Assembly (NCBI GenBank): GCA_021234155.1
Contig: JAJEKV010000096.1
Span: 1,002,010-1,066,009 of the forward strand
Origin: Isoetes taiwanensis
Taxonomy: Eukaryota; Streptophyta; Lycopodiopsida; Isoetales; Isoetaceae
DNA length: 64,000 bases
Reading direction: 5' to 3'
Made by a program: the position numbers and the translations under genes. How positions within the stretch are numbered: the first letter of the stretch is position 1; every line of letters starts with the position of its first letter. Shown piece after piece: positions 2,325 to 39,634 of this stretch. The notes under the pieces were generated by a model. That model did no database searches. It was not told the origin of the DNA and was given only the letters and a program-made list of their open reading frames with translations.

Positions 2325-2627
2325 GGGTAAAAGCATGAAAGGGTGTACGTACATCGTACTGAATTGAAGGACGAATTTGTGCTTTTTTGGGGTACATTTT
2401 AGATGTACATCAAGATACTATGGTTTGTCGTTTTGTGTCAGATATGTAATGATTGCAAGATCATCCCTGACAGTGCCCCCGAAATTCTTGGTTAACCACC
2501 AAACCACCGAACCAATTCGAATGGATCCGTCCCTCCCTTTCCGAAATTCCCCCCCTTTCATAGAACGAACACCGAACGAATTCCAGAAGCAAACACATGC
2601 CAATTGAATCTACAAGAAATACAAATC

Positions 2628-2765
2628 GCCCATCGCGGTGGTGGTCTAGTGGTAAGGCCTTGGATTGGGGTAATCCCCACTAGGGTTCAAAACCCACTGG
2701 CTACCATCGGGTGGGAGACGTGGGTGGGTGCAAGTCCCACCAACCATGCCTTCAATAAAAAAAAA
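2628..2765 (+). mobile_element. tRNA-derived SINE with perfect target duplication
   Basis: A 138-bp unit begins with GGTGGTCTAGTGGTAAGG, matching a pol III A box, followed by GGGTTCAAAACCC, a B-box-like element, and ends in an A-rich tail. It is flanked by the perfect 14-bp direct repeat AAGAAATACAAATC at 2614-2627 and 2766-2779. Boundaries are therefore exact. It lies just upstream of the transposase-like gene inside the large element. Confidence 0.88.
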
Positions 2766-2794
2766 AAGAAATACAAATCAATTTCAATCTGTTC

Positions 2795-3118
2795 ATGGAG
2801 GGTGAGAATTCCAATGGAAGTGATGGTTCTAAGCGCAAGTATGCCGACATTGACCAGTGTTATGCCACAAAACAAATAAAGCAGCGTGTTGACAGGTCGG
2901 TGGATTGCATCCTCAGTTGCTGGCAAACGCTTCGTCCAGATCAAAGATTAGTTTTTTGTGCTCGTTTGTTGCAAGATGACAGGCTTTTTTCTTTTTTCGA
3001 ACCTGTAATTGGAAATCCTTCCGAAGTTATTGTTATGAAATCAATGATCAGAAACTTGAAAGATGGGCTTCAAGAAGTAAAGTCTGCTAATAGCAAAGAT
3101 AAATTGGCTGCAAAACAT
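2795..3118 (+). pseudogene. Transposase-like gene, first exon (interrupted)
   Basis: The frame starts at an ATG 15 bases after the SINE target duplication (MEGENSNGSDGSKRKYADID) and runs 108 codons with a short basic, nuclear-localisation-like patch. It stops making sense exactly at 3118/3119, where the retroelement begins. Joining 3118 to 9930 restores the frame (…AAKH then SLLSMIVGKKGD…). The N-terminal part matches no domain I know; assignment as the N-terminus of the transposase-like protein rests on co-linearity with 9930-12777. Confidence 0.6.
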
Positions 3119-3300
3119 GTGACATTTACCTTCATTTTCAAGGAATTGAAGGTAAATGAAGTTCTTGAACTACTAGGTAGTTGCTTGACGGTTATTTTGT
3201 CCTTTGTGAAGTCCTCCTATTTAGTTTCCTTGTCTCGCAGGTTTTCCTCCATCAGCTTCCTCAACGAGCATCTCTTTCTTCTTGGAGTGTCTAGCACCAC
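3119..3300 (+). repeat. Repeat A1 of the YR retroelement
   Basis: Left terminal copy of the 182-bp A repeat; the second copy is 9181-9362. Just inside the terminus is a perfect 11-bp inverted repeat, ATTTACCTTCA ... TGAAGGTAAAT (3123-3156), able to form a hairpin; it may be the recombinase core site. Confidence 0.9.
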
Positions 3301-3631
3301 GGCTACACAGCCTCCCTCTTTCGTCCATTTTATTTGTATACGTTTTCCATTGTGGGTTTTTGGCTTTCTCCTTTGCATGTTCGACGTCTTCCAAGCTTTG
3401 TTTTATTTCGGCAAACGGTGCTTCATATTTGTTTCTTTGGTGCTTCATATTTGTTTCTTTGCCTTCAGAATATCTTCACGTCCGATTTAGATCTGGGCAA
3501 GGGATCTAGGCTACCAATTTCCCGTAGTTCTTCCTTTCGTGGAATTTTATCCAGCCTTACTTATTCCCTTTCTACCATTTCGTTTTGTTTGCCCATTTCT
3601 TCAAACTGTTTCTTGCTCCTCTGTATCATCA

Positions 3632-4336
3632 ATGGCCCCAAAAATGAATCCTCTCAAGCTGGGAAAGAGGCCTATCACAGAAGCTTCTGGTTCTTTGAAT
3701 GATCCAAAATCAAGAGTGCCTACTGATGAGGAGTCTCCGGCATGGTTACAGGCTATGGAAAGCCTTCTAGAATCCAAAATTGCTGGTCTGGGCGGTGCTA
3801 TGGAGTCCAAGATTGCAGCCTTAGGTGGTGCTAAAGCAGAGGATGTGGTAGCTCTGGAATCCAAGGTTGCTTCTCTTCAGGAAGAAATCCAGCGGAAGAG
3901 CAAGAAAGCTAGGGCTCCTGCCCTCAAATTTGATGGGAATATGAAGCAATGGGATTTTTTGAACGAGGTTGAGGAGTCATTTGCGGAGCTGGAAAGTCAT
4001 ATGCGGCTCCAGAAGACGTTAGATCCAGCAAGCAAAGCGATTATTGACAAAGGTACAAATTTGGTTTCAAATAGGAAGAATTATGTCTGGATAAGGGACA
4101 GGGAAGGACCAACAGTGGCTGAATGCTACGAAATGGGAGAATTTAATTGGTGTGATAGTGATAAACGGTTAAGGGATGCCAGGAAACTAGCTTCTGAGCT
4201 AAGTAGGACCTCCAAGAAGCGGTTTGGTTTCCAGTTTGGGCTTAAAGGTTCTAATCTTTGCTATATTTGTCAGCAACCAGGCCATTTAGCAGCGTCATGT
4301 CCATCTAAATCTCTTCTGGCTCCAGCTCCTCAATAG
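3632..4336 (+). CDS. Gag-like protein of the YR retroelement
   Basis: Structural (nucleocapsid-type) protein thought to package the element's RNA. I chose the ATG at 3632 (MAPKMNPLKLGKR), giving 234 residues; the frame is open further upstream to 3539. A short segment with repeated ESKIAxLGGA units (about residues 45-85) probably forms a coiled coil. A CCHC zinc knuckle (CYICQQPGHLAASC) lies near the C-terminus. Downstream is 1.5 kb of noncoding T-rich DNA before RT, so RT may be expressed from a spliced or separate message. Confidence 0.8.
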   Translation: MAPKMNPLKLGKRPITEASGSLNDPKSRVPTDEESPAWLQAMESLLESKIAGLGGAMESKIAALGGAKAEDVVALESKVASLQEEIQRKSKKARAPALKFDGNMKQWDFLNEVEESFAELESHMRLQKTLDPASKAIIDKGTNLVSNRKNYVWIRDREGPTVAECYEMGEFNWCDSDKRLRDARKLASELSRTSKKRFGFQFGLKGSNLCYICQQPGHLAASCPSKSLLAPAPQ

Positions 4337-5843
4337 CTTCGGCTCCCGGCACCAGCAAACACTAATAATCTGTTTTATAAACCTGCTTGAATGTTTAAAT
4401 TGTATGTGTTTTTGTCTCTCTGTTTTGAGGGAGTGATCTTGATAATAAAGAGTTGTGCTTTCAGTTTTCTTGGCTTTGAAATCTTGTGAATTTAGCAAAT
4501 ACGAGCTCTTCAATTTGGTAGTTTTTTGCTGGCAAAGAAGCTGCTCAATGTTCTCAGATAATGCGGTGTATAGTAAGCATCCTTAGTTTAATATCAAATA
4601 GTGTTCGTCGTTTAAACAGCCTGCATGCCTTTTTCCCTTTTGTTTCTACAGGTTGATCTCATTTAACCAGTCTACAACTCATTTAATCAGCCGTTGATCT
4701 GTTTTCCATGTCCTTTAAGGTTACCATGCGTATAAAGACTGTTTTCTATTTTATGAGAGTGTCCAGCTAGCATGTTGAATTTCATATTTCTCTGAGTTCT
4801 ACTAAATGTTCAAGCGAAGCTGTTCTTTCTACCTTTGTATGTTAATTCCGCGCTTGGTAGCTTCTGTAGTTTAAACTTTTATGGTAGCTTCCAGGCTTGG
4901 TAGCTTCCACACTTCTTTTCCGTGTTCAGCACTATTCAACAAATGTTTCTTCTGATTTCCCATTCCTTAGTTGTTTGGCATTCTTAAATTTGTCTCAACC
5001 CGATCCTTTACTTTAACTCATAGTTCTGTGTGTTGCTGTTACATGACTTATATTCAATCAGAGCTGGGTAGTATGGATAACTAAATTTACTGCCAAGTTC
5101 TTAAATCTACAGCTTTCAATTTTCAGCAGTATTCTGCGTCTGCATGTTGCATTTTTCCTAATCTACATCCCAATTTACAACAGTATTTTGTGTCTCCATT
5201 TCGGGATTGAACTGTAGGTTCATTCTGTGCAAACTGTTTTGTGCACAACCAGTGTCTGTTTTTAGCAATTGTGGCTCTGTTGGGACTCTTGTCGGCCTGT
5301 AGAACTTGAAATATTGCTGTTAGTTGTGATGATCAGATATGGTCTCTTGATTTTTAGAAAACGGGTTGATCTGTGCTACTTCAGAGGAGATCAGAACTTC
5401 CTGTGCAAACGCATTCATGCCTTGACAAAGATGCTTAAATCGGCCTAGTTCTTTATGCTTGTCGGACCGTTTTGGATCAGCCTTGTCCTCAATACCTAGC
5501 TATAGTATGAGTTACCTGATTTTGATAACACAGGAGTGCGTTTTTTCCGGAGAACATCCAATTTCGGCGCCCCTTATGCCTGATCCGACCGCTCCATTCT
5601 TTCCTTCTTGTTGCCCTAATTCAAATCGCTCCAATAATGGCTTTGTGTTTTCCGTTATCTGATCTAAGGCTAACTAATGTTAACCAAATAATCTTTGTAG
5701 CCTAACTATGTATCTTTGTAACTGATGTAGCCGAACTATTTTTATCTTTGTTTAATATTTCATATAAGTGCTTTTTCGCTGACATGGTTATGTTGGTATT
5801 GTGACCAAGGAGGATTCTGTTTTTAATAGTTTATGAGTTTCTA
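4337..5843. other. Noncoding spacer between gag and RT
   Basis: About 1.5 kb of T-rich DNA inside the retroelement with stops in all frames and no recognisable domain. Short phrases such as 'cttggtagcttc' and 'cagtattctgcgtctgcat / cagtattttgtgtctccat' recur, suggesting minor local duplication. Nothing else seen. Confidence 0.6.
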
Positions 5844-7844
5844 ATGAGTGGTTGCCGCATTGTTACAGATATAAGCACTTCACCTTCTCAAAGTTTGCAC
5901 CCACCAGTGACTTATTTGCGCAATAGATTGAAAGACCGTTTGGTTTTTTGGAAATCCTTTTGTTCTTCTGCAATGGTGCTTGATTGGGTCAGTAATGGTT
6001 ATACTCTTCCTTGGCTCCATGGCCCCCCTAGTCAACCTTGGTCTAAGCCAAACCATAAGCCTGTGCAGCAACATGCAGAGTTTGTTAGGGGTGCTATCAA
6101 GGACTTGCTTGCCTCCGGTGCTGCTACAGTCTCAAAAACAATTCCCTTCATATGCTCACCTTTGAGCGTAGTCCCTAAAGCTGGAAATAAATTGCGTCTT
6201 ATTTTGGACCTTCGCTATGTTAATAGTTGCTTAGCTCATATTCCCTTTAAATATGAGACTATAAAGGAAATCCGTGATGTTGTCAAGCCTAATGATGCCT
6301 TGTTTACGTTTGATCTCCATTCTGGATACCATCATGTAGACATCAATCCTGTCTGTTGGACATATCTTGGTTTCGAGTTTGAGGGTGCTCACTACGTGTT
6401 TACATCCTTGCCTTTTGGGCTTTCTTCTGCATGCTACGTATTTACCAAGCTAATGCGACAGATGGTTCGTTTATGGCGTTCTAGAGGATGTCGTTGCATT
6501 CCCTATATAGATGACTTCTTATTTGTTACTTCTGTTTCTAATTTTACAAACGTTAAGGCTTTGGTGATGCAGGATTTTGAGGCAGCCGGCTTTGTTTTAG
6601 CCCTACATAAGTGCCAACTAGAATGCTCTCATGTGGCCAAATTCTTGGGATTTGTGGTTGACTCTTCCTCAGGCTCCTTGTCCATTGCCCCTGCAAAACG
6701 CCAAAAATTTTTCAACTTAGCCTCCAAGCTCCTGACCATCGACTGCATTCCAGCGCGAACTTTAGCCTCTTTTATGGGTATGATTGAGTCTTTCCGTATG
6801 GTTTTTGGCCCTTTTTCCAAACTCTTATCATTTAATCTTGCTAGGCTATATGCTTCCATTACATCTTGGTCCCAACATTTACAGTTATCCCCATCTGAGC
6901 ATGCGGAAAGTTACCTTTGGTCCTCCTCCTTTGATCTCCTTAATAATGCTTACATTTGGGAACCCCTTAACCCTTCCATTTCTTTATGCTATGATGCTAG
7001 TAACTCGGGATGGGGAGTTTGGCTTCATGGTTCTTTTCCGAGTACAGATTTTGCCGGCACTTTCTCTGATGCTGAGAAATCTTCATCCTCAACTGCCCGT
7101 GAGCTTTCTGCCCTATTCCATTTCCTTGAGAACCAGGCTCTGTCCTTGCAAAACTCCCAGGTTACAGCTTTTGGCGATTCCTTAAATGCATACTTTATCC
7201 TTTCAAAGGGTGGATCTCGTATTAGTCACCTACATTCCTTGTGTATCAGGATCTTTATATTGTGCTCCAAGCATAGGATTACCCTTAAACCAGCCTGGAT
7301 TCCTCGGAACCTAAACCAGTGGGCTGACTATCTATCAAAGCTTATTGATTTTGATGACTATATGTTATCTGATGCAGCTTTTTCCTTGTTAGATATGAGA
7401 TGGGGTCCGCATGATTGGGATCGTTTTGCCAATGCTCATAATGCTCATACTTCTAAGTTTAACTGTTGGCACCCACATCCTAGTTTTTTATCACCACCCG
7501 ATGCTTTCTCTCAATCATGGTCCAACACTAACAGCTATTGCTTTCCTCCTCCGAGCCTTGTAGCTAAGACTGTCGCCTTTGCCCTTGCATGTAAGTGTGA
7601 TATCACGTTAGTCATTTTCCATTGGGAGTCTGCTCCTTGGTGGCCAGTGCTTCATGATGAGTTTGGGAATTGGATTGCTTGCTTTGTAGACCATTTATAT
7701 TTTCCAGCCGGTGGATATGCTTTGTGTGGCGCTTCTAGATCTTCTTTACCTTGTGGAAAACCTACTAGTCCGATGATTGCGCTTCGACTTCGTGCTTCTG
7801 ACATGGTGAGTTTTGTGTTTTGTTTCAGATGTTTTCAGTTCTGA
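5844..7844 (+). CDS. Reverse transcriptase / RNase H of the YR retroelement
   Basis: A 666-residue open frame. RT motifs in order: VPKAGNKLRLILDLRYVN (palm), FDLHSGYHHVDIN, LPFGLSSACYVFTKLMR, and the catalytic box YIDDF, followed by a LGF motif. RNase H follows with YDASNSGWGVWL, ARELSAL, GDSLNAY and NQWADYLSK. The region after RNase H (WGPHDWDRFANAHN ... DAFSQSW) is the segment of DIRS/PAT-type elements often described as methyltransferase-like. It overlaps the start of the recombinase region by a few codons. The frame has no stops, so the domain may still be translated. The exact start is uncertain. Confidence 0.88.
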   Translation: MSGCRIVTDISTSPSQSLHPPVTYLRNRLKDRLVFWKSFCSSAMVLDWVSNGYTLPWLHGPPSQPWSKPNHKPVQQHAEFVRGAIKDLLASGAATVSKTIPFICSPLSVVPKAGNKLRLILDLRYVNSCLAHIPFKYETIKEIRDVVKPNDALFTFDLHSGYHHVDINPVCWTYLGFEFEGAHYVFTSLPFGLSSACYVFTKLMRQMVRLWRSRGCRCIPYIDDFLFVTSVSNFTNVKALVMQDFEAAGFVLALHKCQLECSHVAKFLGFVVDSSSGSLSIAPAKRQKFFNLASKLLTIDCIPARTLASFMGMIESFRMVFGPFSKLLSFNLARLYASITSWSQHLQLSPSEHAESYLWSSSFDLLNNAYIWEPLNPSISLCYDASNSGWGVWLHGSFPSTDFAGTFSDAEKSSSSTARELSALFHFLENQALSLQNSQVTAFGDSLNAYFILSKGGSRISHLHSLCIRIFILCSKHRITLKPAWIPRNLNQWADYLSKLIDFDDYMLSDAAFSLLDMRWGPHDWDRFANAHNAHTSKFNCWHPHPSFLSPPDAFSQSWSNTNSYCFPPPSLVAKTVAFALACKCDITLVIFHWESAPWWPVLHDEFGNWIACFVDHLYFPAGGYALCGASRSSLPCGKPTSPMIALRLRASDMVSFVFCFRCFQF

Positions 7845-8471
7845 GTTTTGGATGTCTATGGATAATGCGGATTCAGAGATATGTCACTTATTGTCCCCGC
7901 TGAAGGGTTATACACTGAGTGCGAGGGCTCCTAACACCTTGAAAGCTTATCGTCAACCTTGGTTTGAATTTAAGTTAAGATCTTGTCATCTTCACCTTCT
8001 CTTTCACGAGTCAATAACATCTTGGCATCCATTGCTTTCCATCACCAGGTTGCAGGCCTTGGTAAACCTACTGAACACCCGCTGGTTTCCCTTGTTCGTG
8101 ATCTAGCCAAACGAAATATTCTCTCTAGTATCAACAAGAAGCAACCTTTGTTACCCCACATGGTTAGGAGAATTATTGATACCTTTGCGGGTCCTTTAGC
8201 GACGTTGTTAGATGTCATCTTGCCGCACGCGACTCTTGTCTTAGCTTTCTCGCCTTTTTTGCGTGAGCTCGAACTCGCTTTTTACATTGGCATGAAATAA
8301 TTTTCCTTTCCTCGCATGCTAGTCTCTACATCCGATCCTCTAAAACTGATCAAAATGTTGTAGGTTCTTGGGTTTCTATTGCCCGTTTGGGTGGTTCATA
8401 TTGCCCAGTCCAATTGCTTGAGCGTCTTATCTATATGGGAAAATTTAGAGCTGTGGATGGTCCATCAGGTG

Positions 8472-8800
8472 GTTTTCTTTTCTGTGGTGTTCATTGCTCT
8501 GCATCTGGCCCTGGGTAAATTTTTTATTGACCTACTCAGTTTTTTGACCATCACAGCACATATAAGCACCTTCACCAAATAATTTATGTCATCATCATTT
8601 GCATCACTAATATGCTCATTATATCCTTTATATAATAGAAAACACTCATGATTTTTTGAAGGGCAATGAAGGGCTATGGAAGGGCAATGAAGGGCAGTTT
8701 GAAGGGCAATGAAGGGCAGTCAGCACCTGTGCAGCACATGTGTCGCCCACATGCTTTTTTGAGTATGTGAATTAAAAAACCACCCCCCTTCACTCCGTAA
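8472..8800. repeat. Insert within the recombinase gene with short tandem repeats
   Basis: This stretch interrupts recombinase similarity. It contains three to four copies of a unit close to GAAGGGCAATGAAGGGCAG (about 8657-8722) and AT-rich DNA. Its ends are approximate and no target duplication is evident. It could be an intron-like or MITE-like insertion. Confidence 0.45.
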
Positions 8801-9095
8801 GAATGTGATCTCTTACTCCACCCTTCGTTCATGGTTTCGATATTGCTTGCAATCTATTGGAGAGGATCCTGATGCTTTTGGTACTCATTCTGGTAGACGG
8901 GGTGGAGTTCCAGATCGTTTATTTAAAGCCCATGGTCGGTGGTCCTCGGAGTCTGCTAAAGATGGTTATGTGATTCCAGCCTTGCGTGAACAGCTTCTAG
9001 TTTCTCGTTCTTTAGGTCTTGCTTCAACCGACATCTCAGAAGCTTTATTAGAGTTCGGCATTTCTAGTGGTACACACTTTTCCTGCCTCTTTTTC

Positions 9096-9180
9096 AGCAT
9101 GTATTCTGTTTTGTGTTGTTTAAGAGATGCCCATGGAGGTGGTTCTTTCCATATGTTTTCAACACCTAGTAGTTCTAGAA
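9096..9180 (+). repeat. Repeat B1 of the YR retroelement
   Basis: 85-bp internal copy of the right terminal repeat (AGCATGTATTCTGTTTTGTG ... TTCTAGAA), also at 9845-9929. It abuts A2 directly. Confidence 0.88.
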
Positions 9181-9362
9181 GTGACATTTACCTTCATTTT
9201 CAAGGAATTGAAGGTAAATGAAGTTCTTGAACTACTAGGTAGTTGCTTGACAGTTATTTTGTCCTTTGTGAAGTCCTCCTATTTAGTTTCCTTGTCTCGC
9301 AGGTTTTCCTCCATCAGCTTCCTCAACGAGCATCTCTTTCTTCTTGGAGTGTCTAGCCCCAC
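9181..9362 (+). repeat. Repeat A2 of the YR retroelement
   Basis: Internal copy of the left terminal repeat at 3119-3300, with two differences noticed over 182 bp. B1-A2 together mimic the joined ends of a circular intermediate. Confidence 0.88.
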
Positions 9363-9844
9363 CCACCCGCCCATTTCGCCTAGTGACAATTGGAGGCTTT
9401 CATGCATAGTTGGTGGCCTTAGTGCCTGGATGGAGGCCCCGTGCCTGGTTGGTGACCCTAGAGTCATGGTGGGCCTTGTGCCATGGAAGGCCCTAGAGCC
9501 TGGATCAGCCCGAAGGGCTTTTTACCTCATTTTCATGTTGTTTTGCAGATATCAAGCTGAACGGACGTGATAGTTGAGCTACCAAGTTGGGAAGGGAGCC
9601 TACACTCTTGTTACAAGATTGTTGCGGTTGAACTTGGCTCGAGCATTATTCTCTTCTTTTTGCCATCTTGCATGTGCTATACCTGTGTACCCATCCCAAC
9701 AAGGCTGGTAGGCCTGAGGGTATTTTGTTTTCATCTTTGGAAACCTAGCCTGGTTAGTGATTCTATTATGGTCAGGGTTTTTCCTCGAAAACCCGAAAGG
9801 GCGAGGTTTTTTAATCCCGATTATAATGGTTTCACTAATCGGCA
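9363..9844. other. Spacer between A2 and B2
   Basis: Noncoding. A short run repeats the words 'gtgcctgg / ggtgaccct / ggccc' (9400-9500). At 9777-9825 there is a GGTTTTTCC...CGAAAACCC...GGTTTTTTAATCC module closely matching one in the 3' regions of the LINE copies in this window. Confidence 0.6.
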
Positions 9845-9929
9845 AGCATGTATTCTGTTTTGTGTTGTTTAAGAGATGCCCATGGAGGTGGTTCTTTCCA
9901 TATGTTTTCCACATCTAGTAGTTCTAGAA
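9845..9929 (+). repeat. Repeat B2, right end of the YR retroelement
   Basis: Right terminal copy of the 85-bp B repeat. Host coding sequence resumes at 9930 (TCACTGTTATCA) in frame with 3118. Confidence 0.88.
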
Positions 9930-10226
9930 TCACTGTTATCAATGATTGTTGGAAAAAAAGGAGATATAAACAAGAATGTTTCTTCAAAATTGCTAAAGAT
10001 ACAGCCAAGAAATTTATCCAAAGCTGCAGCAAGAAGGAAGATAATGTCATTAAGTGGAGCAAATGTATGGGCTTTGGCAGGAAGGATGCCAAGATCAAAT
10101 AGAATCGATGATTCAATCAAATGTCAGGTTCGTGAATTTTGGCTTGACAATACCAAAGTTTCACCAAAGGTTAGAGATGTCATGAAGAGGAGAACACAAG
10201 CAATACAATACCTTGATATCTCACAG
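9930..10226 (+). pseudogene. Transposase-like gene, continuation exon
   Basis: The frame continues from 3118 across the retroelement: SLLSMIVGKKGDINKN ... ANVWALAGRMPRSNRIDD ... VREFWLDNTKVSPKVRDVMK. It ends at TCACAG/GTTTGC (10226/10227), a good splice donor. The segment is rich in Lys/Arg and resembles the region that precedes the Cys-rich part in this kind of protein. No stop in the exon. Confidence 0.65.
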
Positions 10227-10379
10227 GTTTGCTCTTGTAATTGAATCAATTCAGTTTTGGAGATTATGTTTTCTTTCAAAATTCTTTCATGACTTTCTTC
10301 TGTACATTCTAGTTCTGTTCGAAAGTGACCGTTAATGAATACACATGGTTTTCATGAAATGTATTGCATTTTACATTGT

Positions 10380-10800
10380 TTACATTTTTACATTGTTTAC
10401 ATAGTAGCAGAAATCTTGCGGTGATGTGCTATTAGGTACTTTTTAGATGTACATCCATTAACACTTACATGTCCATGCAAAATGCATTTTACATGTACTT
10501 GAATATCAAAATTACATCATTTTACATTTTAGTGTACTTTCGTGTAATGAAGCCAAACAAATCATACATATGTACATTAGTTGTACTAATATTGTAACAT
10601 TAATGTGATGTACTAATATTGGAACATTAATTAGATGTACATTAGATGTACACTGGATGTACATTGGATGTACATTGGATGTACAATAATGCATCGCTGG
10701 AACTGTTGGTCGTACATTAGATGTACTTGATGTAATGTTAGATGTACATTAGATGTACAATAATGCATCGCTGAACTGTTGGATGGACATTTTATGTACA
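10380..10800. repeat. TGTACAT minisatellite in a putative intron
   Basis: Many copies of TTAGATGTACATT / TTGGATGTACATT are packed between about 10600 and 10770, and a unit 'acaataatgcatcgctg' occurs twice. Similar GTACAT words occur at 2390-2410, 12835-12900 and near 24440, close to both ends of the large element, so these could be subterminal-type motifs. Confidence 0.65.
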
Positions 10801-10903
10801 TAGAACACACATTAATTGTACAATAGTATAGTTCAATACTCTTTTGGCATCCGTTGCCGACATCATTTTGCTAACATGGTCTTTAATGCTTTTGTTATTG
10901 TAG

Positions 10904-11379
10904 TCCCGAGCTTTATCAACAGTTTGTATATCGTAATCCCGATACCAAAATTCGCCGACGCGGTTCGGTATCCAAACCTGATTGCATAAGGAAATTGAAG
11001 GAGAGAAACACATGTTGTTGTGTCAAACATGAGCAAGCGTCTCTGTATGAAAAGGCCTTCAATGATATGAGGAGATCCCTACATGTTAATTGCACTTGTC
11101 TTTGCTGCGGTTCTGCAGGCATCCCAACAAAACAATGGAGTATGTCAAGCAAACAAGAAGACTTTTGATAATGTTAGTATCTTGTGGAGGTCAACAGCTT
11201 ATGAGAAATATGTGACGGATGAATGGCATAAACTAAAATGCATCAAAGGTGATGAATGTGGAGTGAAGAAATTAGACATCCGTCCAAACGAGGAAGATGG
11301 AATTCGAGAATGGGACCGGCAAGTATATGCATATGTCAATGAGCCATCCAAAAAGGTACATCCGAAGGCTTTAGATTAG
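10904..11379 (+). pseudogene. Transposase-like gene, Cys-rich exon(s)
   Basis: After an acceptor (TTATTGTAG at 10895-10903) the frame reads PELYQQFVYRNPDTKIRRRG ... NTCCCVKHEQASLYEKAFND ... HVNCTCLCCGS: a cluster of Cys/His (CCC-x2-H, then CxCxxC) likely to bind zinc. A shift to another frame gives YEKYVTDEWHKLKCIKGDEC and EEDGIREWDRQVYAYV. The order (Cys-rich C..H..N, then C-x-x-x-C, then acidic segment) resembles transposon-associated proteins I recall from animals and plants. The frame change may be an unrecognised intron or a frameshift. Confidence 0.6.
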
Positions 11380-11393
11380 TTGATCGGAATGAC

Positions 11394-12777
11394 AAAGCAT
11401 CCGCTTTGTTAAAGAACATGAAAAATCAGCTTGCTAAGTTTACGATCATAACTTTACGGCCTAATCGGGCAGAGCAAAAAAAGTTTTAAAAGATGTGTTG
11501 AGAAAATCCCTGATAATAGTGTGTTGTCTGTTGTTGACTTTGCGAGAGAACTACACATTGAAACCGGGGGACGTAAGTGCAATCCGAGCATTGGAATCCT
11601 GATCAAATTAGTAATTTGGCCCATATTTCAATGATGAAAATAGAAGGTAAGCTTAAAAAAAAAAGTGCATTTCTATGTTTCAGATGACAGGAAGCATGAC
11701 ACTCATTTTGTGCAACATGGTTTTAAATTACATTTGGGGTGGCTTAAGAATAGTGGAGGTGGACACATAAACCTTCATTATGTGTGGTCGGATGGTTGTG
11801 CATCTCAATTCAAATCTGCACGGGCATGGTATGGAATCTATAGATACCATGTTGAAAATAAAATTCGCGTGATATGGAATTTCTTTGGATCTGGCCATGG
11901 GAAAGGCACACATGATGGCGAGGCTGGTATAGCAAAGTTGTGGCTTGAGAGCGAAAGCAGAGAAAACAAAATGGCATGCCAAAGTGGCAGTCTGTAAAAC
12001 TTGTTTGTGCGCTTTTAGGGCCAAGGAATCGGATTGTGAAAGGGTGTTTTGGGAGGTTGGAAAAATAGATGTGAACAGGCAGCAAGCATTCAATTGCAAG
12101 ACTTTACCTGGTACTCAGCAGATACATTCTATGTCAACTATAAACCCAGCAGTTCCAACAAAGTTGCTATGCAGACCACTCTCGTGCTTTTGTGATGCTT
12201 GCATGAACTTCAATTGGTTGAATTGTGAGAACATTAAACATTGTGGAGAATGGTCTCTAAAAAGTTTGGAGCCCACAGATCATATTGCCTCTCGTGTTGA
12301 AGCTGAAAATGATGTGGATGTTTTGTATGCAGAGGACGGGCGAGGCTGGTTTAGATGACACCGTAGTCATGTTTTCGGATGTATTTGTGTCTTTTGCAGC
12401 ACCTGCACAATGTGGAAGGTGTTTCATACTATGTTCTCATGTGCACCGTGGAAAAACATGCATTGGAAGAAGATTCAATTGATGACTATGGAAATGAATA
12501 CTCTGGGCACTAGTGCCATTGAAGGACAATATTATGAACTAATCCCGGTACTGCCACAATAAGTATAAACCGCTTCCTACTAAGAATGTTTTGGTACCTA
12601 CTGAATCTGTGATTGGGGTTCGAATCCCATTCAAGAAAAGTAAAACACAAGTGAAGGGGCAAGCACAAAGATTTCACTTGCCGATGAAGTCCATGAGACA
12701 TTATTATCACAACTTCCAAAGAATTGTAGATGACATGGACTAAGTCGATCCAGAGTACTTTCCAGAAATATTGTAAT
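11394..12777 (+). pseudogene. Transposase-like gene, putative DDE catalytic region
   Basis: Read across three frames, the region shows VDFARELHIE and an EIQSEHWNPDQISNLAHI segment, then SDDRKHDTHFVQHG (about 11680-11720), WSDGCASQFKSARAWYGIYR (about 11785-11845) and WNFFGSGHGKGTHDGEAG (about 11875-11930). Asp and Gly-His-Gly-Lys motifs with this spacing are shared by a family of transposon-linked proteins that I recall as DDE/RNase H-fold-like; the family name is not certain. Downstream are YYVLMCTVEKHALEED and KPLPTKNVLVPTESVIGVRI, then a conserved-looking tail ending near DPEYFPEIL at 12777. Several frameshifts and stops make it nonfunctional. Confidence 0.6.
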
Positions 12778-12829: not shown

Positions 12830-12900
12830 CATTATGTACATCAATGTACATAAGATGTACAACACATGTACATCTTATGTACATCTGTTGTACATTCCAG
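12830..12900. repeat. Short GTACAT repeats after the transposase-like gene
   Basis: Alternating TGTACATAAGATGTACA and TGTACATCTTATGTACAT units form a near-palindrome. Same motif family as 10600-10770. Confidence 0.6.
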
Positions 12901-13512: not shown

Positions 13513-13557
13513 CTACAAAGCAAATGAAGATCACTTAATTATGTATACACACTCATA

Positions 13558-14567: not shown

Positions 14568-15040
14568 AGGACATATGTAGCTTCCTACAGGATTCAAAGT
14601 GGATTTGTATCTTTCGTCGTCGATCAGAACTGTATGTCCATAGTACTCTGGGTACTCTTTCCATACCACAGCTAATGGTTTCATAAACAACCCCTTTTGA
14701 GGTTCAGTAGGGTGTTTGTGTGGCAGAGTCCAACACTGCTCCTGGCTGTAAACAAACTTCAGCTTTATGGAAAAAGCATCACAAATATGTTCCACAATTG
14801 GGTGAATATTTTTAGAAGTGAGTGAAGACCAGATGGCAACATCAAACCCTTCTCTTACAAATGCTAACAGTGATGTTAACCCTGGCCCGCAGTAAAAAAA
14901 AACCTGTTTCCTATATTAAATTGAAGCTCATCTTTCTGGATCTGTTGGTATCTTGAGTTAATATTTTCATTCTTCAACACAGAATTTAAGTCAAAGATAA
15001 TGAGCTTTCTCCCTGAATTAGATGATTCACCTGTCAGCAA
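14568..15040 (-). pseudogene. Composite gene, FCP1/NIF-like phosphatase core
   Basis: Descending from 15040 the frame gives motif I as RKLIIFDLNSVLKN: the nucleophilic Asp is kept, the second Asp is Asn. After a one-base shift in a run of T (about 14898) come GPGLTSLLAFVREGFDVAIW SS..., the motif II region typical of FCP1/NIF proteins (usually VGIWSSA), then FVYSQEQCW and KPLAVVWKEYPEYYGHTVLI DDERYKS, which is HAD motif III with its paired acidic residues, and NPVGSYICP. Members of this family dephosphorylate Ser/Thr, for example of the RNA polymerase II tail; this copy lacks a complete DxDxT and probably was catalytically altered before decay. Confidence 0.7.
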
Positions 15041-15299: not shown

Positions 15300-16030
15300 T
15301 CCCTCCGTGGCTTGGCATAGGCATCAGTGAACCAACTGGGTGTCATCTGCATGGTGCACAAGTATTAGAGGACTATACCAACAAATAACTAATAGGAAAA
15401 TAACATGTTCTACTTACAAGAATGGAGCTTGGCTGTGCATCAACCATGGCATCTATGAATTTGTGCATGTAAGCCACAATGTACATGCAAGGGTTGCTGG
15501 TACTAGTTTCTGGCATTTTAGGACAGAACACAGGAGCATGAAAGTTCTTCCTACCGTGGTTTAAGTTGTTGGATCCGAGCATCATGTTATTGATCACAAG
15601 CTTATGAAACCTGCAAAATTGCAATGTGAGAATAAATCAAGCATAAGAAATTGCAATATGAGAATAATCAAATCATAAAAACAAAACAAAAACTCATACT
15701 TACTTCGACCACTTTAGCATCGGGTACATAGCCTTTGACAGAGAGAGGATCAGATACTTGGGCTAGCTATAGATGGAAAAGAGTTTTTCATCGACCAACA
15801 AGCACAAGTATTGCCAATGCCACATTTGGGCCTTGCGTAATTGGAACAAATATGTATTGGCATCTTGCAATCAAAATGCCATCCAGCCCTTCCTTTATGT
15901 TAGTGTTCTCGTGCATCCGCCCTCCCTATTCTTGAGGGAATTCACAAAATTCGAAGGTGTCCAAATGAACCGTAAAAAACTTGTGTTTCCAATCGATGGA
16001 AGACCGCTACAAAGGTACCTCGCACACAAA
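15300..16030 (-). pseudogene. Composite gene, Ulp1-like (C48) protease domain
   Basis: Descending from about 16020: LPSIGNTSFLRFIWTPSNFV, then RCQYIFVPITQGPNVALAIL, then (15570-15400) FHAPVFCPKMPETSTSNPCM YIVAYMHKFIDAM. The order matches Ulp1-type SUMO proteases: Trp-rich start, the strand that normally carries the catalytic His, and the segment with the catalytic Cys before an amphipathic YVxxYM helix. The His position is occupied by another residue here and CG has become CM, so activity is unlikely. Exons are separated by AT-rich introns with plausible splice sites. Compare the better preserved version at 31856-32450. Confidence 0.6.
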
Positions 16031-16339: not shown

Positions 16340-17501
16340 GCTTCAAAGATCTTCTCGTGGACTTTCCGCACCTTATTTGTTATCACATCAATATTTGCTT
16401 GTAGCTCCTCTTCCTCTTCCGGTTCCGACTCAGCAGGATCAGGATCAGCTTCCTTCACGGCCTGTGATCGTGTCCTATGTACAAAAAAAATGTGATTAAT
16501 TATCATAAATCTGAGATGTTTAACAAAATTAGTTCATGTTGGACATACCTCTTTCTTAGTGGAGGACATTTTTTTGTTGCTGGAGATTTTGCCTGCTTTT
16601 TTCCTCTTGGAGTTACATCATCAGCATTCTTTTGCCTCCTCTTTGGAGTGGACTCAACTACCAACTCAACTTCCTCTTCCCTGGTATCTCCTGGGATAAA
16701 ATCTGGATCTGTGTCCTTTGTAGCTTCTCGTAACAGTCCAGGCCGCACCCGCAGATGATGCCGGTGACGTGTTTAATCTTTCTTAGGAGCTCTCCCCATG
16801 AAATCCAAAATCTGTAATGCCTTTGCTGAACCAATTCAATGCAATTAAGTTTATCCTTTGCTTTTTCAATTGAGATTTCATGCCTTTCAATTTCTTTAGT
16901 TGCTTCCTGCAAACCAATTTCTAGCTTAGAAGAGTGCTGCTCTTTCTCATGTCTACTCATAACCAAGTCTTCCAACTTGTACTTCAACACTCCGAAGATA
17001 ACTTGATTTCCAGCAGGATCCTGGGACAATTTGTCAAATTCCTGTTTTGTCTCGTCTATTTTCTGGCAGATCTGCTGCAGATCTTCGGATAGCATATCCT
17101 TTCTACCCTCAATCTGGCTGATGACCTTCAATGCATCCCTCCTTTTTTCTTCCAGTGCTTCTACTTCATTCCTCCAACCCATGCTTAAGTAACTGCTTTA
17201 TTGTGTCAACATCTGATCTAGAATAACCCAGGGCTCTAATATTCTGCTGCAATACGATGTCCTGTTTGATATTTGAGGATTTACCTGTTGTAGGGTCCTC
17301 TGTAACGTCTGAAATGGGGGTTTTGGCAAGATCTTTGGCGGTCCTAGCCACGTCCATCCAATCAACAAGCCGTCCCTTCAAGTGAAGAGCAAATGCTCTG
17401 GCAAAATAGGTAGAAATATAATGGTTTGTAACCTGTTTCTTGCCATAAACCAATTCATAATATTTAAAAAAATCATCTTTCCATGCGTTCTGGATTCTCC
17501 C
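16340..17501 (-). pseudogene. Composite gene, coiled-coil region
   Basis: Reading down from the copia element: RIQNAWKDDFFKYYELVYGK ... ARAFALHLKGRLVDWMDVAR ... LGYSRSDVDTIKQLLKHGLE, then a long Glu/Lys/Leu-rich coiled coil (NEVEALEEKRRDALKVISQI ... EATKEIERHEISIEKAKDKL), an acidic/basic linker and KVRKVHEKIFEAG near 16340. At least two frame changes occur, some possibly introns. The copia insertion at 17501/17502 separates it from its N-terminus at 22741-22970. Confidence 0.6.
17497..17501. repeat. Target duplication CTCCC, left
   Basis: CTCCC precedes the left LTR and recurs at 22736-22740 after the right LTR: the 5-bp duplication expected of copia integrase. Confidence 0.93.
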
Positions 17502-17957
17502 TGTTGAAAATATAATGTTCATATTCATAAGAAGTTTGATATTTGATTTAATGGTTAAAGGTTAGGGTCATGTTAAATGTTATGACCTTATCCTTACTAT
17601 ATAGATTCAAAAAAATAGCTGGCGGCATACTTGAGCAACAGGCTAAGAAATAATTTTGGAAACTTGTATTGGCTTTCCAATCTGATAGCAGAACCGCCGG
17701 ATGCACCTGGATAAAAGGAAGATGATCAATGAAATCAAGATCGGGGTTTTTTGAGCCAGTCGGAAGTGGTCAGGTACAGGTCGGGCCGGATGCATGTTGT
17801 GATCGTAACTTATATATATATGATATAAGGTTGAGTTAAGTTGTTTGAACATAGATTTGGTTTTAATGATTCACATTGCATTTGGTTTTAATGATCCACA
17901 TTGAATCCAATTGAGAAGTCTAAATAATAGTCTTGGTCAATTCGTAAAAGTTTATCA
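17502..17957 (+). repeat. Left LTR of the copia element
   Basis: 456 bp, TG...CA termini, containing TATATATATGATATAAGG (about 17812-17830), a likely TATA region, upstream of two near-identical 'tttggttttaatgat(t/c)cacattg' units. Confidence 0.95.
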
Positions 17958-17972
17958 TTGGTATCAGAGCTA

Positions 17973-20900
17973 ATGGCATCAAGATTGGGTGCATCTTTGT
18001 TGAGTGGTATTGAAGTGTTTCAGGGAGAAGCTGGATTCCAAGCTTGGAAGGGAAGAATGAGAGATGTTCTTGAGGCAGAAGGACTTTGGGAATGTATTGC
18101 TGAAGACAGCAATAGCGAAGGAGAGAGTAGTATGCATTCTGCTCAAGGCACTGGAAGTACTGTAGAAGGTTCTGCTACAGGAGGAAATTCTGGAAGTAGT
18201 TCAAGGAGTAAACTGCATGAAGCCAAGGTAATCCTTGTTAGCAAGTTGAGTTCAAGCATTATGCTGAAAGTAAGAAATAAATCTGCACGAGAAATATGGG
18301 AGTATCTCATTAAGAATTATGAGGTTAGGAATACCTCTCAGCTGGATTTGTTAGACAGAGAACTGAGGAAGTTGAGATATCATGAAAATGACAGTCTGAC
18401 ACAATTTTTTCAGAAATTTGACAACATAATTGCAGATATGGAGGCTGCAGGTGTGCCAATCACCAAAGAATATCAAGTTTTGTCTCTCGCTAGAGCTTTT
18501 AACAAGTATGGTCAGCTTGGGAGCTTGATAAGGACTGTAGGAAGAAACAGGGAAAGAGCTGAAGCATTGATAAGAACTGAAATGGAGCAGATGAAGATAA
18601 CTCAGGAAGATGATAAGGAGAAAATTGAAGTGCTGTTTGCAGGTAAAGGAAATCAACGGATCTTCAAAGCTGGTAAAATAGGTCCTTGTTTCGTATGTAA
18701 TACTTACGGTCATTTGAAAGCAAATTGTCCGAAAATTAAAGAGACTAGATGTTATAATTGTAATGGTTTTGGGCACGTAGCTGCTAAATGTTCGAGTCCC
18801 AAAGACCTGAGACGTGGCAAAGGTAGAGGTAATGCTGGAAATAACGAGGCTGAGTATAGAGAAATGACAAATTCCTTCAAAGGAAAAGAAGGAGCTGGAA
18901 GAGGAAGACAAAGATCGGTTAATTTTGCAAAACATGTTGAGGAGGAGGAAGCCACAGATGATGATGCAGAGGTAAAAATTTTCTCCTCTTTGTCTGTGAC
19001 TAAAGAAGGACATGGTGATAACAATGACGATTTTTATGTTCTAGATAGTGGAGCTGAACGATCAGTGATCAAGTCAGCTAAATGTCTCAAGGATAGAAGT
19101 AACAGGAATGAAAGTTACGTGCAAATGGGGAATGGTGTGCTGCAGAAGGTTGAAGAATGTGGATTTTTAGAGTTGTTTGATCTTGCTAGAAAACCTGTTT
19201 GTTTGAGAGAAGTTTTGTGTGTTCCAAATTTGATAAGGAACTTAATTTCCATTGCTCAGCTTGTTGATATGGGCTATAAAGTTACCTTTGAAAAGAACCT
19301 GCTCAATAATAAAATTAAGTTTCTGGCACCTCGTGTTGGTAATCTGTTCGGTTTTCAGAATGCAAATGTATCAAATAGTTTGAATGCAGTAGTCGCTTGC
19401 TCTTCCAGGACTTGGCATGAGCGATTGGGACATACTAATATTGGAAATATAAGGTACGTGCTCAAACAAGGGATGATTGTTGGTGAAAGTAACGAGAAGA
19501 ATCCGTTCATATGCACAGGATGTCTTCTAGGAAAGCATACTCGACTGCCGTTCCCAAAAAAGGCAAAAAGAGCAACGGAAATACTTGCCCTGATCCATAC
19601 CGATCTGTGTGGACCCCTGAATATTACCAGTTACTCTGGAAAGAGGTATTTTATTACGTTTATAGATGATTTCTCCAGGCTGACAAAATGTTACTGCTTA
19701 AGAACAAAAGATCAGGCATTTGCTGCTTTCAAATGTTTTGCTGCTGAGGTTGAATGTGAAACTGGGAAAAAAATTAAATGTGTTAGATCTGATCGCGGAG
19801 GAGAGTATCTTTCAGGAAACTTTAAAGCTTATTGCAGGCAAAGAGGCATAAGAAGACAACTAACTTGCAGCCATTCGCCTCAGCAAAACGGTGTTGCTGA
19901 AAGGAAGAACAGAACAATTCTCGATGCCGTCCGAGCTATGCTAAAACATTCAGGTCTGCCAAACTTTTTGTGGGAAGAGGCCGTTATGACAGCCGTCAAA
20001 ATTCAAAACAAGCTTCCTTTGTCAAGCACAAAAGGCAAAATACCAGAAGAGTTGTGGAGTGGTGTAAAGCCTGATTATAACTTGTTTAAGGTGTACGGCT
20101 GTCTTGCATTTGCACATGTTCCAGATGAATTGAGAAAGCTAGATGACAGATCGTATAAAACCTTCCTAGTTGGATATGATGACTTGAGCAAAGGATTTAG
20201 GCTCTATGATCCGGATAGAAGGAAAATAATAGTAAATCGTGATGTTGTTTTTGATGAACTGACCGTGTATAAAGATCGTGCAAGTAAATCACTGAAACAA
20301 GTCTCACTTGATGGTGAAAATAGTGTAGTTAAAGAGGTTGAAGAGGAGATTAAGCATGATGCAACCGGTCAGCAAAGGTTTGATGTTCAAGACTTTGACG
20401 ACGATGATGAAAACTCAAGGCATGACACTGTATTTGAAGACATGACAGAAAATCAAAACTGTTCTAGGGATATAACAGAAAATCAGCAAGAAAAGGAGAC
20501 ATATGTAGAACAAAATATTGCAAAAAAGGGAAGGAGACTAACTGAAGTTGAGAAACTTAGAGAAGGAATGGCCTTTGATGATTTGAATTACGGAAGAAAA
20601 GATACAGGGAAAAGCAAAAGACACGATAAGGGAAATGAGCAAGAACTCATTATGGATTTAAGCTTTGTAATGGCAATACTAAATCCAAATGTGCCAAGAA
20701 GTTATGAAGAGGCATTGAATGCTCCTGATTGTGATAAATGGAAGGAGGCTATGTGTGCAGAAATGAAATCGTTTGAAAGAACAAAAACTTATGATGTTGT
20801 TAGCATGCCTGAAGGGAAGAATATAGTGGGCAATAAGTGGGTTTTTAAACTGAAAACAGGTCCAGATGGAGTCACTCAAAAATACAAAGCAAGGCTCGTG

Positions 20901-21053
20901 GCACAAAAATACGGTATTGACTTTGAGGAAACTTTCTCTCCGCTGGTTAAATTGACTAGTATAAGAACATTGCTTGCTTATGCAAATGCTTATAATCTGG
21001 AATTAGAACATATGGATGTACATACTGCGTTTTTGAATGCAGTTTTTCAATGA
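17973..21053 (+). pseudogene. Copia polyprotein: gag, protease, integrase, RT start
   Basis: About 1026 residues from the first ATG after the primer site. Two CCHC knuckles (CFVCNTYGHLKANC and CYNCNGFGHVAAKC) mark nucleocapsid; DSGAERSV is the protease active site; HERLGH ... CTGCLLGKH is the integrase zinc finger; HTDLCGPL, RSDRGGEY and QQNGVAERKN carry the D,D35E triad. RT begins at NKWVFKLKTGPDG. The RT stretch KARLVAQKYGIDFEETFSPL lacks a few residues usually found after LVA. The frame ends early because of an extra T in a T-run at about 21043-21047. Confidence 0.93.
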
Positions 21054-21945
21054 AGAAATTTACATGCATGCTGCACCAGGCTTTGAACAAGGGAAAAACA
21101 CAGTCTGGAAACTGAATAGAGCCGTATACGGATTGAAACAGTCCCCAAGAGAATGGTACAAATGTATTGATTCATTCTTGAAAAGTAAGCATTTTATTAA
21201 ACTTGAAAGTGATGGCAATTTGTACATGTTCCGTGAAGGCGGTAATCTCTGTATAGTGGCTTTGTATGTAGATGATTGTCTTATGGCAGCAAATAGTGCA
21301 TGTTGTATGAAATATTGCAAGCAGATAATGATGAGCAGATTTGAAATGTCAGAGCTGGGCAAACTAACAAAGTTTCTTGGAATGGAGATCACCAGGGATA
21401 GACAGAATAAGATTCTGAAATTAACACAGGGTGGATATATTAAAAGCATGCTAGATAAGTTTGGAATGAAAGATTGTAAACCAATTGGCTGTCCGATGCT
21501 TCCAGGCACCAAACTATCTAGTTCTATGAGTCCACAGACTGATGACGATAAATTAGAAATGGCAGCAGTCCCGTATCAAGAATTAATAGGAAGCTTGTTG
21601 TATTTAGACAATTGTTGCAGACCAGATATCGCTTATTCAGTGGGATTGCTCAGTAGATTCTGCAGCAATCCAGGCAGACAACATTGGGTTGCTGCCAAAA
21701 GAATATTAAGGTATCTCAAGGGAACTGTTGAATATGGAATAACGTATTGTAATGAAGACTTGACTTTAAAATGTTATTCGGATGCTGATTGGGGAGGAGA
21801 TATAGACTCTAGAAAATCTACCTCGGGTTATGTACTCATGCTTGGTGGAGGTGCAATTTCATGGAGGAGTAAAAAACAGTCTAGTATTGCTATGTCTACT
21901 GCCGAAGCTGAGTATTATGCCACAACTCTTGCAGCTAAGGAGTAG
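21037..21945 (+). pseudogene. Copia RT and RNase H, second frame
   Basis: Continues RT after the frameshift: EEIYMHAAPGFEQG, VYGLKQSPREWYKC, the catalytic YVDDCLMA, LGMEITRD, then the RNase H start CYSDADWGGD and STSGYVLMLGGGAISW. It ends at a TAG (21943-21945) where a deletion between LAAKE and RRLLNE shifts frame. Confidence 0.92.
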
Positions 21946-22273
21946 ACGTTTGTTGAATGAACTTGGCATAGTACAAAATACTGCAACAGTCCTGCTGACA
22001 GATAGTATAAGCTGTATTGCCATTTGCAAAAATCATGTGCTACATGAGCGAACGAAACATATTGAGATGAACATGCATTTCATTAGAAGCATGGTAGAAA
22101 AAGGACATGTTTCACTTGAATATATTCCTACAGAACAGCAAGTTGCAGATGTGTTAACTAAACCTGTTTCACAGATAAAATTCCATAGATTTCTTGGGAT
22201 GATGGGATTACAGGATTTGAAGCTGAAGGAGGTACGTTCTGGAAATGAAAGCACAGATGAATATGACATTAAG
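21946..22273 (+). pseudogene. Copia RNase H C-terminus, third frame
   Basis: RRLLNELGIVQN ... LLTDSISCIAICKN ... RTKHIEMNMHFIRSMVEKGH ... EQQVADVLTKPV, the canonical copia RNase H end. The frame runs to a stop at 22285, inside the right LTR. Confidence 0.9.
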
Positions 22274-22279
22274 GAGGAG

Positions 22280-22735
22280 TGTTGAAAATATAATGTTCAT
22301 ATTCATAAGAAGTTTGATATTTGATTTAATGGTTAAAGGTTAGGGTCATGTTAAATGTTATGACCTTATCCTTACTATATAGATTCAAAAAAATAGCTGG
22401 CGGCATACTTGAGCAACAGGCTAAGAAATAATTTTGGAAACTTGTATTGGCTTTCCAATCTGATAGCAGAACCGCCGGATGCACCTGGATAAAAGGAAGA
22501 TGATCAATGAAATCAAGATCAGGGTTTTTTGAGCCAGTCGGAAGTGGTCAGGTACAGGTCGGGCCGGATGCATGTTGTGATCGTAACTTATATATATATG
22601 ATATAAGGTTGAGTTAAGTTGTTTGAACATAGATTTGGTTTTAATGATTCACATTGCATTTGGTTTTAATGATCCACATTGAATCCAATTGAGAAGTCTA
22701 AATAATAGTCTTGGTCAATTCGTAAAAGTTTATCA
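22280..22735 (+). repeat. Right LTR of the copia element
   Basis: 456 bp, nearly identical to the left LTR; followed by the CTCCC duplication at 22736-22740. Confidence 0.95.
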
Positions 22736-22740
22736 CTCCC

Positions 22741-22970
22741 TTCCTTGAATCCTCGTCTATTTTTTGAGCTTCACCCCATACCTCGTTCATAACCATCTCT
22801 AGGTTGGGTATGTGGGCCTCTGCATGTTTATCACGGAGGTCTTTGGCTTGGATCACATCAGAACCCAAACATAAACTCCTTGGAGGTAAAATTCCACTGC
22901 CGGAAGCACTGGCTTCTTGCTTGGGCTGTGGTGATGAGCAAGCACTCATCTGGGGGCGTTTTGGGGCCAT
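22741..22970 (-). pseudogene. Composite gene, N-terminus
   Basis: Starts at the ATG 22970-22968 (MAPKRPQMSACSSPQPKQ), a Pro/Ser-rich, probably disordered leader, followed by HAEAHIPNLEMVMNEVWGEA. The PNL-x3-M-x-E-x-WG motif recurs at the N-terminus of the second composite gene (29510), tying the two together. The copia insertion follows; a frame change occurs across the site, so the gene was either already damaged or has an unseen short intron there. Confidence 0.6.
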
Positions 22971-23105
22971 AGCTAGATGAAGAATTCGTGATCGGAATTC
23001 AAGCAGAGAAGGCAGGGGCGGGATAGTGAACGAGAGGCAAACCAAGAAAGAATTTGGGAAAGAATTTCAAAATTCGAAAATTGTGTGGTTTCAGAGTGGT
23101 GGATA

Positions 23106-23708
23106 GCAACACAAACCATTAACATCCAACATATAAAAATTAAATCCCCCAACACATAACAACCATTGACATTAACAACCAACACATAACTACCAACTAC
23201 CATTGACATTAATTAACACAACCATTGGGTCTAACACATTTAAATTAAAATCCCTCTTAAACCCCCTTTGGTTTGGGTGCATATTCACACGGGAGGTGAC
23301 GTAGGGCACCGAGAGCCCTCATAATTGTATTTTGCACGTACGAAATCAATACCATATAGTATTCCGCTTGAAATCTTATAGTATTTTGCGAATCTTGTTA
23401 TACAGTATAGCAAATTTTGTACTTGCATACCCCACAAACGAGGAACTTTACGTACGGTGTAGATTAAGGAATAAGGGGTGAATATGCCTATCCAACAGCT
23501 CTCGTTGCCCAGAGTCACCCCCCGTGTGAATATGCACCCAAACCAAAGGGGGTTTAAGAGGGATTTTAATTTAAATGTGTTAGACCCAATGGTTGTGTTA
23601 ATTAATGTCAATGGTAGTTGGTAGTTATGTGTTGGTTGTTAATGTCAATGGTTGTTATGTGTTGGGGGATTTAATTTTTATATGTTGGATGTTAATGGTT
23701 TGTGTTGC
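23106..23708. mobile_element. Foldback element with 195-bp inverted arms
   Basis: 23106-23300 and 23514-23708 are near-perfect inverted repeats (ends GCAACACAAACCATT / AATGGTTTGTGTTGC) around a 213-bp centre. No clear target duplication is seen; the right flank is a run of A. Noncoding; a MITE-like or Mutator-like foldback element is likely. Confidence 0.8.
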
Positions 23709-23991
23709 AAAAAAAAATTTTTGGCCCCGAAGACGTCCCCCCCCCCCCAGAATTCAAACCAGAAAAAAAACTAGAATTCATTTGAGGCTTTCATCACCTG
23801 TAGCTTTTGAATTTGATCACAATAAAACAAATAGAACATAAGTAAAAGTTACCATAAAAATAGAGCAGATTGATCCCATTATTCTGAAAGTCATAAAGTT
23901 TGCAACACCCATACATAAACATTTTTCAACTGGGATTTAACAGCAGCCTTTGGCCTCCATGGATTCTTGTGGTGAGAAACCAAAGTGGGAA

Positions 23992-24238
23992 TGAGCCATT
24001 GGTTGTTGACCATTGAAAAAAAAGGCTAAAATCAATGGCCCTTCATGTGCCATTATGCACCACACACACAAAAAGAGGGCTTTTGTTGTGAGCCATTGGT
24101 TGTTGACCATTGAAAAAAAAGGCTAAAATCAATGGCCCTTCATGTGCCCATTATGTACCACACGCACAAAAAAAGGGCTTTTGTTGTGAGCCATTGGTTG
24201 TTGACCATTGAAAAAAAAAAGGCTAAAATCAATGGCTC
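23992..24238 (+). repeat. Tandem repeat, unit about 98 bp, 2.5 copies
   Basis: Units begin TGAGCCATTGGTTGTTGACC at 23992, 24089 and 24187; each contains the internal inverted pair CCATTGA...TCAATGG. Lies in the subterminal part of the large element. Confidence 0.85.
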
Positions 24239-24481
24239 AGAAATGGTGCACTCTAGATGTAAGCATTAGTACATCCATTTGAATACATCACGAAATCATA
24301 GGAAAACCTTAGTAAAAAGCGTACAAAAACACAAAGAAAACCCCCTGTTATTATGCTACATATTCATGGCAGTTACTAGCGGGTCACGATGACAGTTATT
24401 CCAAAAATGTGCATTCGGTACATGTGTATATGTACAAAAAGGGCTACATTTATAGACACCCTTTCATGCTTTTACCCAAGC

Positions 24482-39240: not shown

Positions 39241-39634
<394 letters not shown>

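Follow-up and report, generated by a model that had tools for sequence, protein, structure and literature searches.

Structure of the element at the locus

The window (the whole 64,000-nucleotide stretch of Isoetes taiwanensis DNA that was analysed) contains a DNA transposon bounded by identical 22-bp inverted repeats, each adjoined by AAGC. Inside it lie a transposase gene on the plus strand, an accessory Ulp1/FCP1-like gene on the minus strand and nested elements. The features, with the evidence for each, are as follows.

2321..2324, no strand: left target duplication AAGC (sequence; a single AAGC or AAGT in the fetched empty paralogues)
2325..2346, plus: left 22-bp terminal inverted repeat (sequence; genome matches of the terminus)
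2795..3118, plus: transposase exon 1, first part (frame continues at 9930; homologous stretch in 13/13 full-length copies and in family 2)
3119..9929, plus: nested retroelement, presumably DIRS-type (repeats, frame; absent from the compared copy L010)
9930..10226, plus: transposase exon 1, second part (frame continuity, copy comparison)
10301..10822, no strand: array of palindromic TGTACA motifs in the transposase intron (similar arrays in 13/13 full-length copies)
10905..12358, plus: transposase exon 2, catalytic part, with several apparent frameshifts (alignment of relatives, model of a relative)
12835..13025, no strand: second TGTACA array, between the convergent genes (spacing mostly 10-11 bp)
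13088..13808, minus: accessory gene, C-terminal exons (copy comparison; family 2 homologue of the 13088-13534 part)
13847..14285, no strand: interspersed repeat in the accessory gene region (71% similar to 36792-37222; lies in a stretch that L010 lacks)
14568..15011, minus: accessory gene, FCP1/NIF-like domain (Pfam NIF PF03031, E 1.5e-8 for 14568-14915)
15376..15636, minus: accessory gene, degenerate Ulp1-like stretch (aligns with the Ulp1-like gene at 32 kb, E 0.002)
16661..17501, minus: accessory gene, further exons including a stretch resembling a coiled coil (Pfam matches weak and below cut-off)
17502..22735, plus: nested Copia element (LTR pair, duplication CTCCC)
22736..22970, minus: accessory gene, N-terminal exon starting MAPKRP (copy comparison)
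23107..24361, no strand: 1.25-kb extra stretch (absent from L010)
24456..24477, minus: right 22-bp terminal inverted repeat (sequence, inverted-pair search)
24478..24481, no strand: right target duplication AAGC (sequence)

Perfect inverted pairs of at least 12 bp with a flanking duplication of at least 3 bp numbered three in the window: the pair of the element (22 bp) and two of 12 bp. First-order Markov sequences of equal length, 20 in all, yielded no inverted pair above 18 bp and none above 15 bp with a matching 4-mer, so the 22-bp ends and their AAGC are not a product of chance. Two terminus matches occurred in 0/100 shuffled sequences, and no third match with up to 3 mismatches was found within the window.

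The earlier note had described a reading frame restored across the insertion, and deleting the element and one AAGC in silico did rejoin DGVLCRTLPK/ATFDKSW. The empty-site check that it proposed was run on four fetched paralogues of the interrupted gene. All four were uninterrupted over 80 bases spanning the junction (76, 77, 76 and 76 of 80 bases identical; target 4-mers AAGC, AAGC, AAGT and AAGC), showing that insertion was precise. The interrupted host "gene" is itself present in many copies. With the element taken out, the host exon matched many genome places (150 scored out of 5,698 first-look candidates), and most of the top matches span the full 197 aa in one open frame. FCP1-like sequences of this kind are very numerous in the genome, and annotation could mistake them for host gene families.

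The mobile unit is shorter than the 22 kb first assigned to it. It measures about 9.2 kb, and the extra length of the window copy comes mainly from two insertions, a DIRS-type element of 6.8 kb and a Copia element of 5.2 kb, one in each of its genes. We take the former to be DIRS-type from its split direct repeats (A1 3119-3300, B1 9096-9180, A2 9181-9362, B2 9845-9929). It has an RT ORF (5844-7844) and a second ORF (8763-9218), which has no Pfam match and which we take to resemble a tyrosine recombinase, and it sits in transposase exon 1 without a target duplication, the frame picking up exactly at 9930. The Copia element lies inside the accessory gene, and its LTRs (17502-17957 and 22280-22735) are identical at 455/456 bases. 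Relative to L010, a full-length copy, the window copy carries further extra stretches of about 0.14, 0.7 and 1.25 kb and lacks about 1.17 kb; the longest of the extra stretches holds 211-bp inverted arms (23106-23316/23498-23708) and tandem repeats of about 98 bp.

Copy number and target duplications

The genome assembly (1.66 Gb, 1,110 contigs) was searched with the 22-bp terminus. At up to 2 mismatches, a limit wide enough to take in a second family with 2/22 bases different at its left terminus, there were 4,045 matches (1,998 forward and 2,047 reverse), and the reversed control gave 0. Copies were chosen among the exact matches listed (at least about 100 places). The inverted pairs picked among these listed matches comprised 13 at 9.1-9.8 kb spacing, 10 at 252-265 bp and 2 longer, giving a full-length element of about 9.2 kb (13 copies, 9.13-9.75 kb) and a miniature of about 260 bp.

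Exact 4-bp target duplications flanked 25 of the 28 copies examined. These were 12/13 full-length copies (the exception being L016), 9/11 miniature copies (exceptions L022 and L040, the latter a 220-bp element with a 2-mismatch end from a further stretch), both longer copies, a further copy (L081) and the window copy; 12 fetched places with no partner end in their 551-bp stretch were left out of this count. The 25 duplications represent 23 different 4-mers, with TTAA among none. The two observations that the earlier note named as refuting it were looked for and not made: the termini recur in numerous other copies, and the bases adjoining the 22-bp ends vary from copy to copy and carry 4-bp duplications. 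Together these data bear out the exact ends and 4-bp duplication claimed for the window copy, and confirm a real transposon of a high-copy family.

The transposase gene

Both genes reported in the earlier note, transposase-like on the plus strand and Ulp1/FCP1-like on the minus strand, are present and convergent. Pieces of both were found in the same order and convergent in 13/13 full-length copies, usually with stops and frame changes; the 9,241-bp copy L081 retains an open transposase exon of 462 aa. Searched with the transposase core, the genome yielded 7,731 candidates at first look; the 150 scored (all E <=1e-62) fell into two rough tiers of about 73-98% and 61-69% identity.

The catalytic triad of the window copy is encoded by Asp codons at 11536-11538, 11791-11793 and 11914-11916. 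Among 55 aligned relatives, these Asp residues are conserved in 55, 55 and 52. A total of 86 relatives was found, the named ones including a moss, two conifers and three animals; none carries a transposon name, though most are unnamed altogether. No Pfam or NCBIfam family matched at cut-off, and Pfam and PDB sequence searches gave only weak matches below cut-off, which were taken as chance. The predicted model of one relative (P0001) has the RNase H order and an RNase H/integrase-like core with the triad. Foldseek alone returned no match at E <=0.001, its best hit being NurA, with RAG1 chains low in the list. Among the 50 rows of the VIA structure list that were displayed, none is a hAT or RAG chain, which speaks neither for nor against a transposase. 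An Argonaute-type RNase H fold is in that list as well, and the fold by itself is therefore no proof of a transposase. A single-sequence model of the 117-aa catalytic piece from the window had a mean pLDDT of 48 and was discarded. Searches of the transposase pieces against viral contigs, GTDB contigs, phages and plasmids found no relative.

The second family is represented by two copies of the second tier, L079 and L080, with open transposase exons of 620 and 629 aa. It is known from its left side, where the terminus matches that of the first family at 20/22 bases. L079 and L080 are 97% identical for 4.1 kb and then differ. Accessory parts occur in the same place and orientation as in the first family: both copies have the C-terminal part (37-39% identity), and within the stretch fetched L079 alone shows the FCP1-like part (31%).

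The accessory Ulp1/FCP1-like gene

When a majority reading over copies was used, the FCP1-like part of the accessory gene matched NIF PF03031 at E 5.6e-12. The domain carries DLNSVL at the motif position. The usual FCP1 motif is DxDx, and the Asn in place of its second Asp makes phosphatase activity doubtful. The Ulp1-like stretch has no Pfam match of its own. A second Ulp1/FCP1-like gene lies in the window at 29.4-33.4 kb, and its Ulp1 motif matches Peptidase_C48 (E 1.1e-4, with X at a stop); no imperfect 22-bp inverted repeat with a duplication was found around it (24-44 kb).

The accessory gene occupies the same place and orientation in each of the 13 full-length copies that were searched, and parts of it do so in family 2. 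With the divergence between families (about 30-39% identity), this shows that it is old and has been retained, and it would travel with the element as a fixed component. A captured passenger without function is possible, though we hold it the less probable reading: the degenerate Ulp1 part and the altered FCP1 motif would suit a passenger, as would the divergence of L079 from L080 after 4.1 kb, and Fanzor1 passengers whose 3' parts are interchangeable are found in Sola2 elements elsewhere (PMC3627910), but the constant position and orientation in both families argue against it. Most likely, and this is a guess, the product of the retained gene binds the transposase, or SUMO or chromatin factors of the host, as a partner without catalytic activity.

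Sequence differences between copies

Differences were analyzed in 11 of the 13 full-length copies, leaving out L012 (divergent) and L018 (a 500-bp insert). Near CG and CHG, the density of substitutions and short indels was about 4-6 times that at other sites, and transitions made up about 55% of substitutions. Within 100 bp of an end the altered share of CG/CHG sites was 0.13, rising to 0.46 at distances above 2 kb, whereas control trimers away from CG/CHG had no such trend (0.004-0.063, one bin 0.135). Well away from these sites there were 4.4 to 14.6 substitutions per kb, depending on the definition.

As the differences cluster at CG/CHG and increase away from the ends, many of the frameshifts are likely to be assembly errors rather than decay. 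Most simply, bases at methylated sites were probably miscalled and the errors stayed uncorrected within repeats; alternatively, methylation may form a gradient and the changes be real mutations. Against error stands the Copia LTR pair nearby, which has 20 CG/CHG sites and a single base difference, although better correction of a lower-copy element could account for these near-identical LTRs. Deamination as the sole cause was disfavored, as transitions were 563/949 of the substitutions at CG sites and short indels were equally enriched. The subterminal regions were more alike (0.967 and 0.957) than the whole element (0.921); selection on the ends was set aside in favor of polishing, given the smooth rise of the altered CG/CHG share with distance from the ends. 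The error pattern is a warning that a frameshift in a repeat of this assembly needs checking before it is taken as decay.

Superfamily placement

The earlier note had found that the element does not fit CACTA, hAT or Mutator, and this holds. The duplication made by hAT elements is 8 bp, against 4 bp here. CACTA (EnSpm) elements have CACTA termini and a 2-3-bp duplication, whereas the termini here are GGGTAAAA and the duplication is 4 bp. The target of piggyBac and Kolobok is TTAA, found in 0/25 of the exact duplications. Plant Mutator-like elements can carry Ulp1 genes and in this resemble the present element. Mutator duplications, however, are 7-12 bp (PMC10741241), against 4 bp here. Ginger shares 4-6-bp duplications and an integrase-like transposase with it, and differs in its TG...CA ends and 40-270-bp inverted repeats (PMC10741241).

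The superfamily that the earlier note had not considered is Sola, described as having a DDD transposase, 4-bp duplications, inverted repeats of 11-1124 bp and a size of 2-9 kb, with some elements over 15 kb (PMC10741241), and known from moss (PMC9033089, PMC10741241). Compared with this published description of Sola1/2/3, the element is alike in its triad (and the RNase H order of the P0001 model), duplication length, termini and size. We therefore consider that it probably belongs to Sola. The broader statement, that it is a cut-and-paste DNA transposon of about 9.2 kb with terminal inverted repeats, most likely of Sola or a close sister, can be made with good confidence. An undescribed superfamily, one of the two possibilities in the earlier note, is not needed, since 4-bp duplications and a DDD transposase are stated features of Sola (PMC10741241). 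Sola2-Fanzor1 chimeras of amoebozoa (transposase of about 888 aa in one family) likewise have 4-bp duplications and one conserved end, the other protein-coding part differing between families; their accessory gene is Fanzor1 and their duplications are AT-rich, compared with Ulp1/FCP1-like and non-AT-rich here (PMC3627910).

Were the transposase instead from a DDD lineage that lies outside Sola, makes 4-bp duplications by coincidence and has spread through plants and animals, the lack of a Pfam or NCBIfam match at cut-off and of a transposon name on any of the mostly nameless relatives would be expected, as would the absence, from the open-licence literature searched, of any paper combining Ulp1 and FCP1 with a transposon, or Sola and Ulp1 with transposons. 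We regard this as rather unlikely, as the absence of a Pfam name is weak evidence and the triad, duplication and inverted-repeat lengths, size and plant occurrence all fit published Sola (PMC10741241). Membership of some other superfamily with a compatible duplication length is very improbable. Such a superfamily could be Academ or Chapaev, both of which can make 4-bp duplications. Chapaev has been merged into EnSpm (PMC4455052). EnSpm termini are CAC-type, however, unlike those found here, and there was no Pfam match to an EnSpm-type transposase.

Proposed mechanism and significance

From these features we infer that the transposase, with its N-terminal exon, Cys/His-rich region, RNase H-like DDD core and C-terminal domain, would bind the 22-bp ends and excise the element. 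Insertion would then proceed through staggered cuts 4 bp apart, at sites with no obvious sequence preference, and the miniature copies may be moved in trans through the same ends. The 3/28 copies with no exact duplication stand against this scheme.

It is conceivable, but unlikely, that the DDD lineage lies outside Sola in plants and animals and that its land-plant members have kept the convergent Ulp1/FCP1-like partner while it diverged to about 30-39% identity between families. If true, this would amount to a functioning transposition system of two proteins, directed at SUMO or at phosphorylation-dependent factors of the host. A high-copy, poorly catalogued lineage of plant DNA transposons is now linked to a fixed Ulp1/FCP1-like partner gene, a link that is directly testable.

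Internal features of the element and differences between its copies

Features of the element and of the gene that it interrupts (window coordinates)
257-1672, 2293-2324 and 24482-25043: interrupted FCP1-like host gene
3119-9929: nested element with split direct repeats
10301-10822 and 12835-13025: palindromic TGTACA arrays, spacing of ~11 bp

In the core of the element TGTACA occurred 2.4 times per kb, compared with 0.43 in the flanks, and the 13 full-length genomic copies of the family each contained 27-37 of these sites. It is possible that the arrays are protein-binding. The nested element, presumably of DIRS type given its split direct repeats, had inserted without a target duplication.

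Differences between the full-length copies (L009-L021) were concentrated at CG/CHG sites and became more frequent with distance from the element ends. Those clustered at CG/CHG sites are probably assembly errors at methylated positions.

Related sequences in the window and host genome

A second Ulp1/FCP1-like gene lies outside the element (29432-33390, plus strand); its domains are arranged in the same order as those of the accessory gene inside the element. No TIR pair was found around it in a search of 24-44 kb of the window, and within the window there was no transposase match beyond the element's own. The window also holds a frame-broken fragment similar to an organellar EF-Tu gene of plants (27105-27833; GTP_EFTU match at 27360-27833, E 5.5e-32), long GA microsatellites (39257-39760 and 45994-46200) and a TrkH-type cation transporter gene (57173-58720, minus strand).

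Elsewhere in the host genome, three matches to the element terminus in identical orientation, spaced ~4.6 kb apart (G000:C2:47003, 51594 and 56147), suggest a tandem array of partial copies. In L080, a copy of the second, related family, further open frames without a Pfam match were seen past the point of divergence from its fellow copy L079 (L080:7039-9897); these could be extra passengers or a nested element.

Copies similar to the interrupted FCP1-like host gene were very numerous (5,698 first-look candidates, 150 scored), and therefore this gene is itself probably carried by another repeat.
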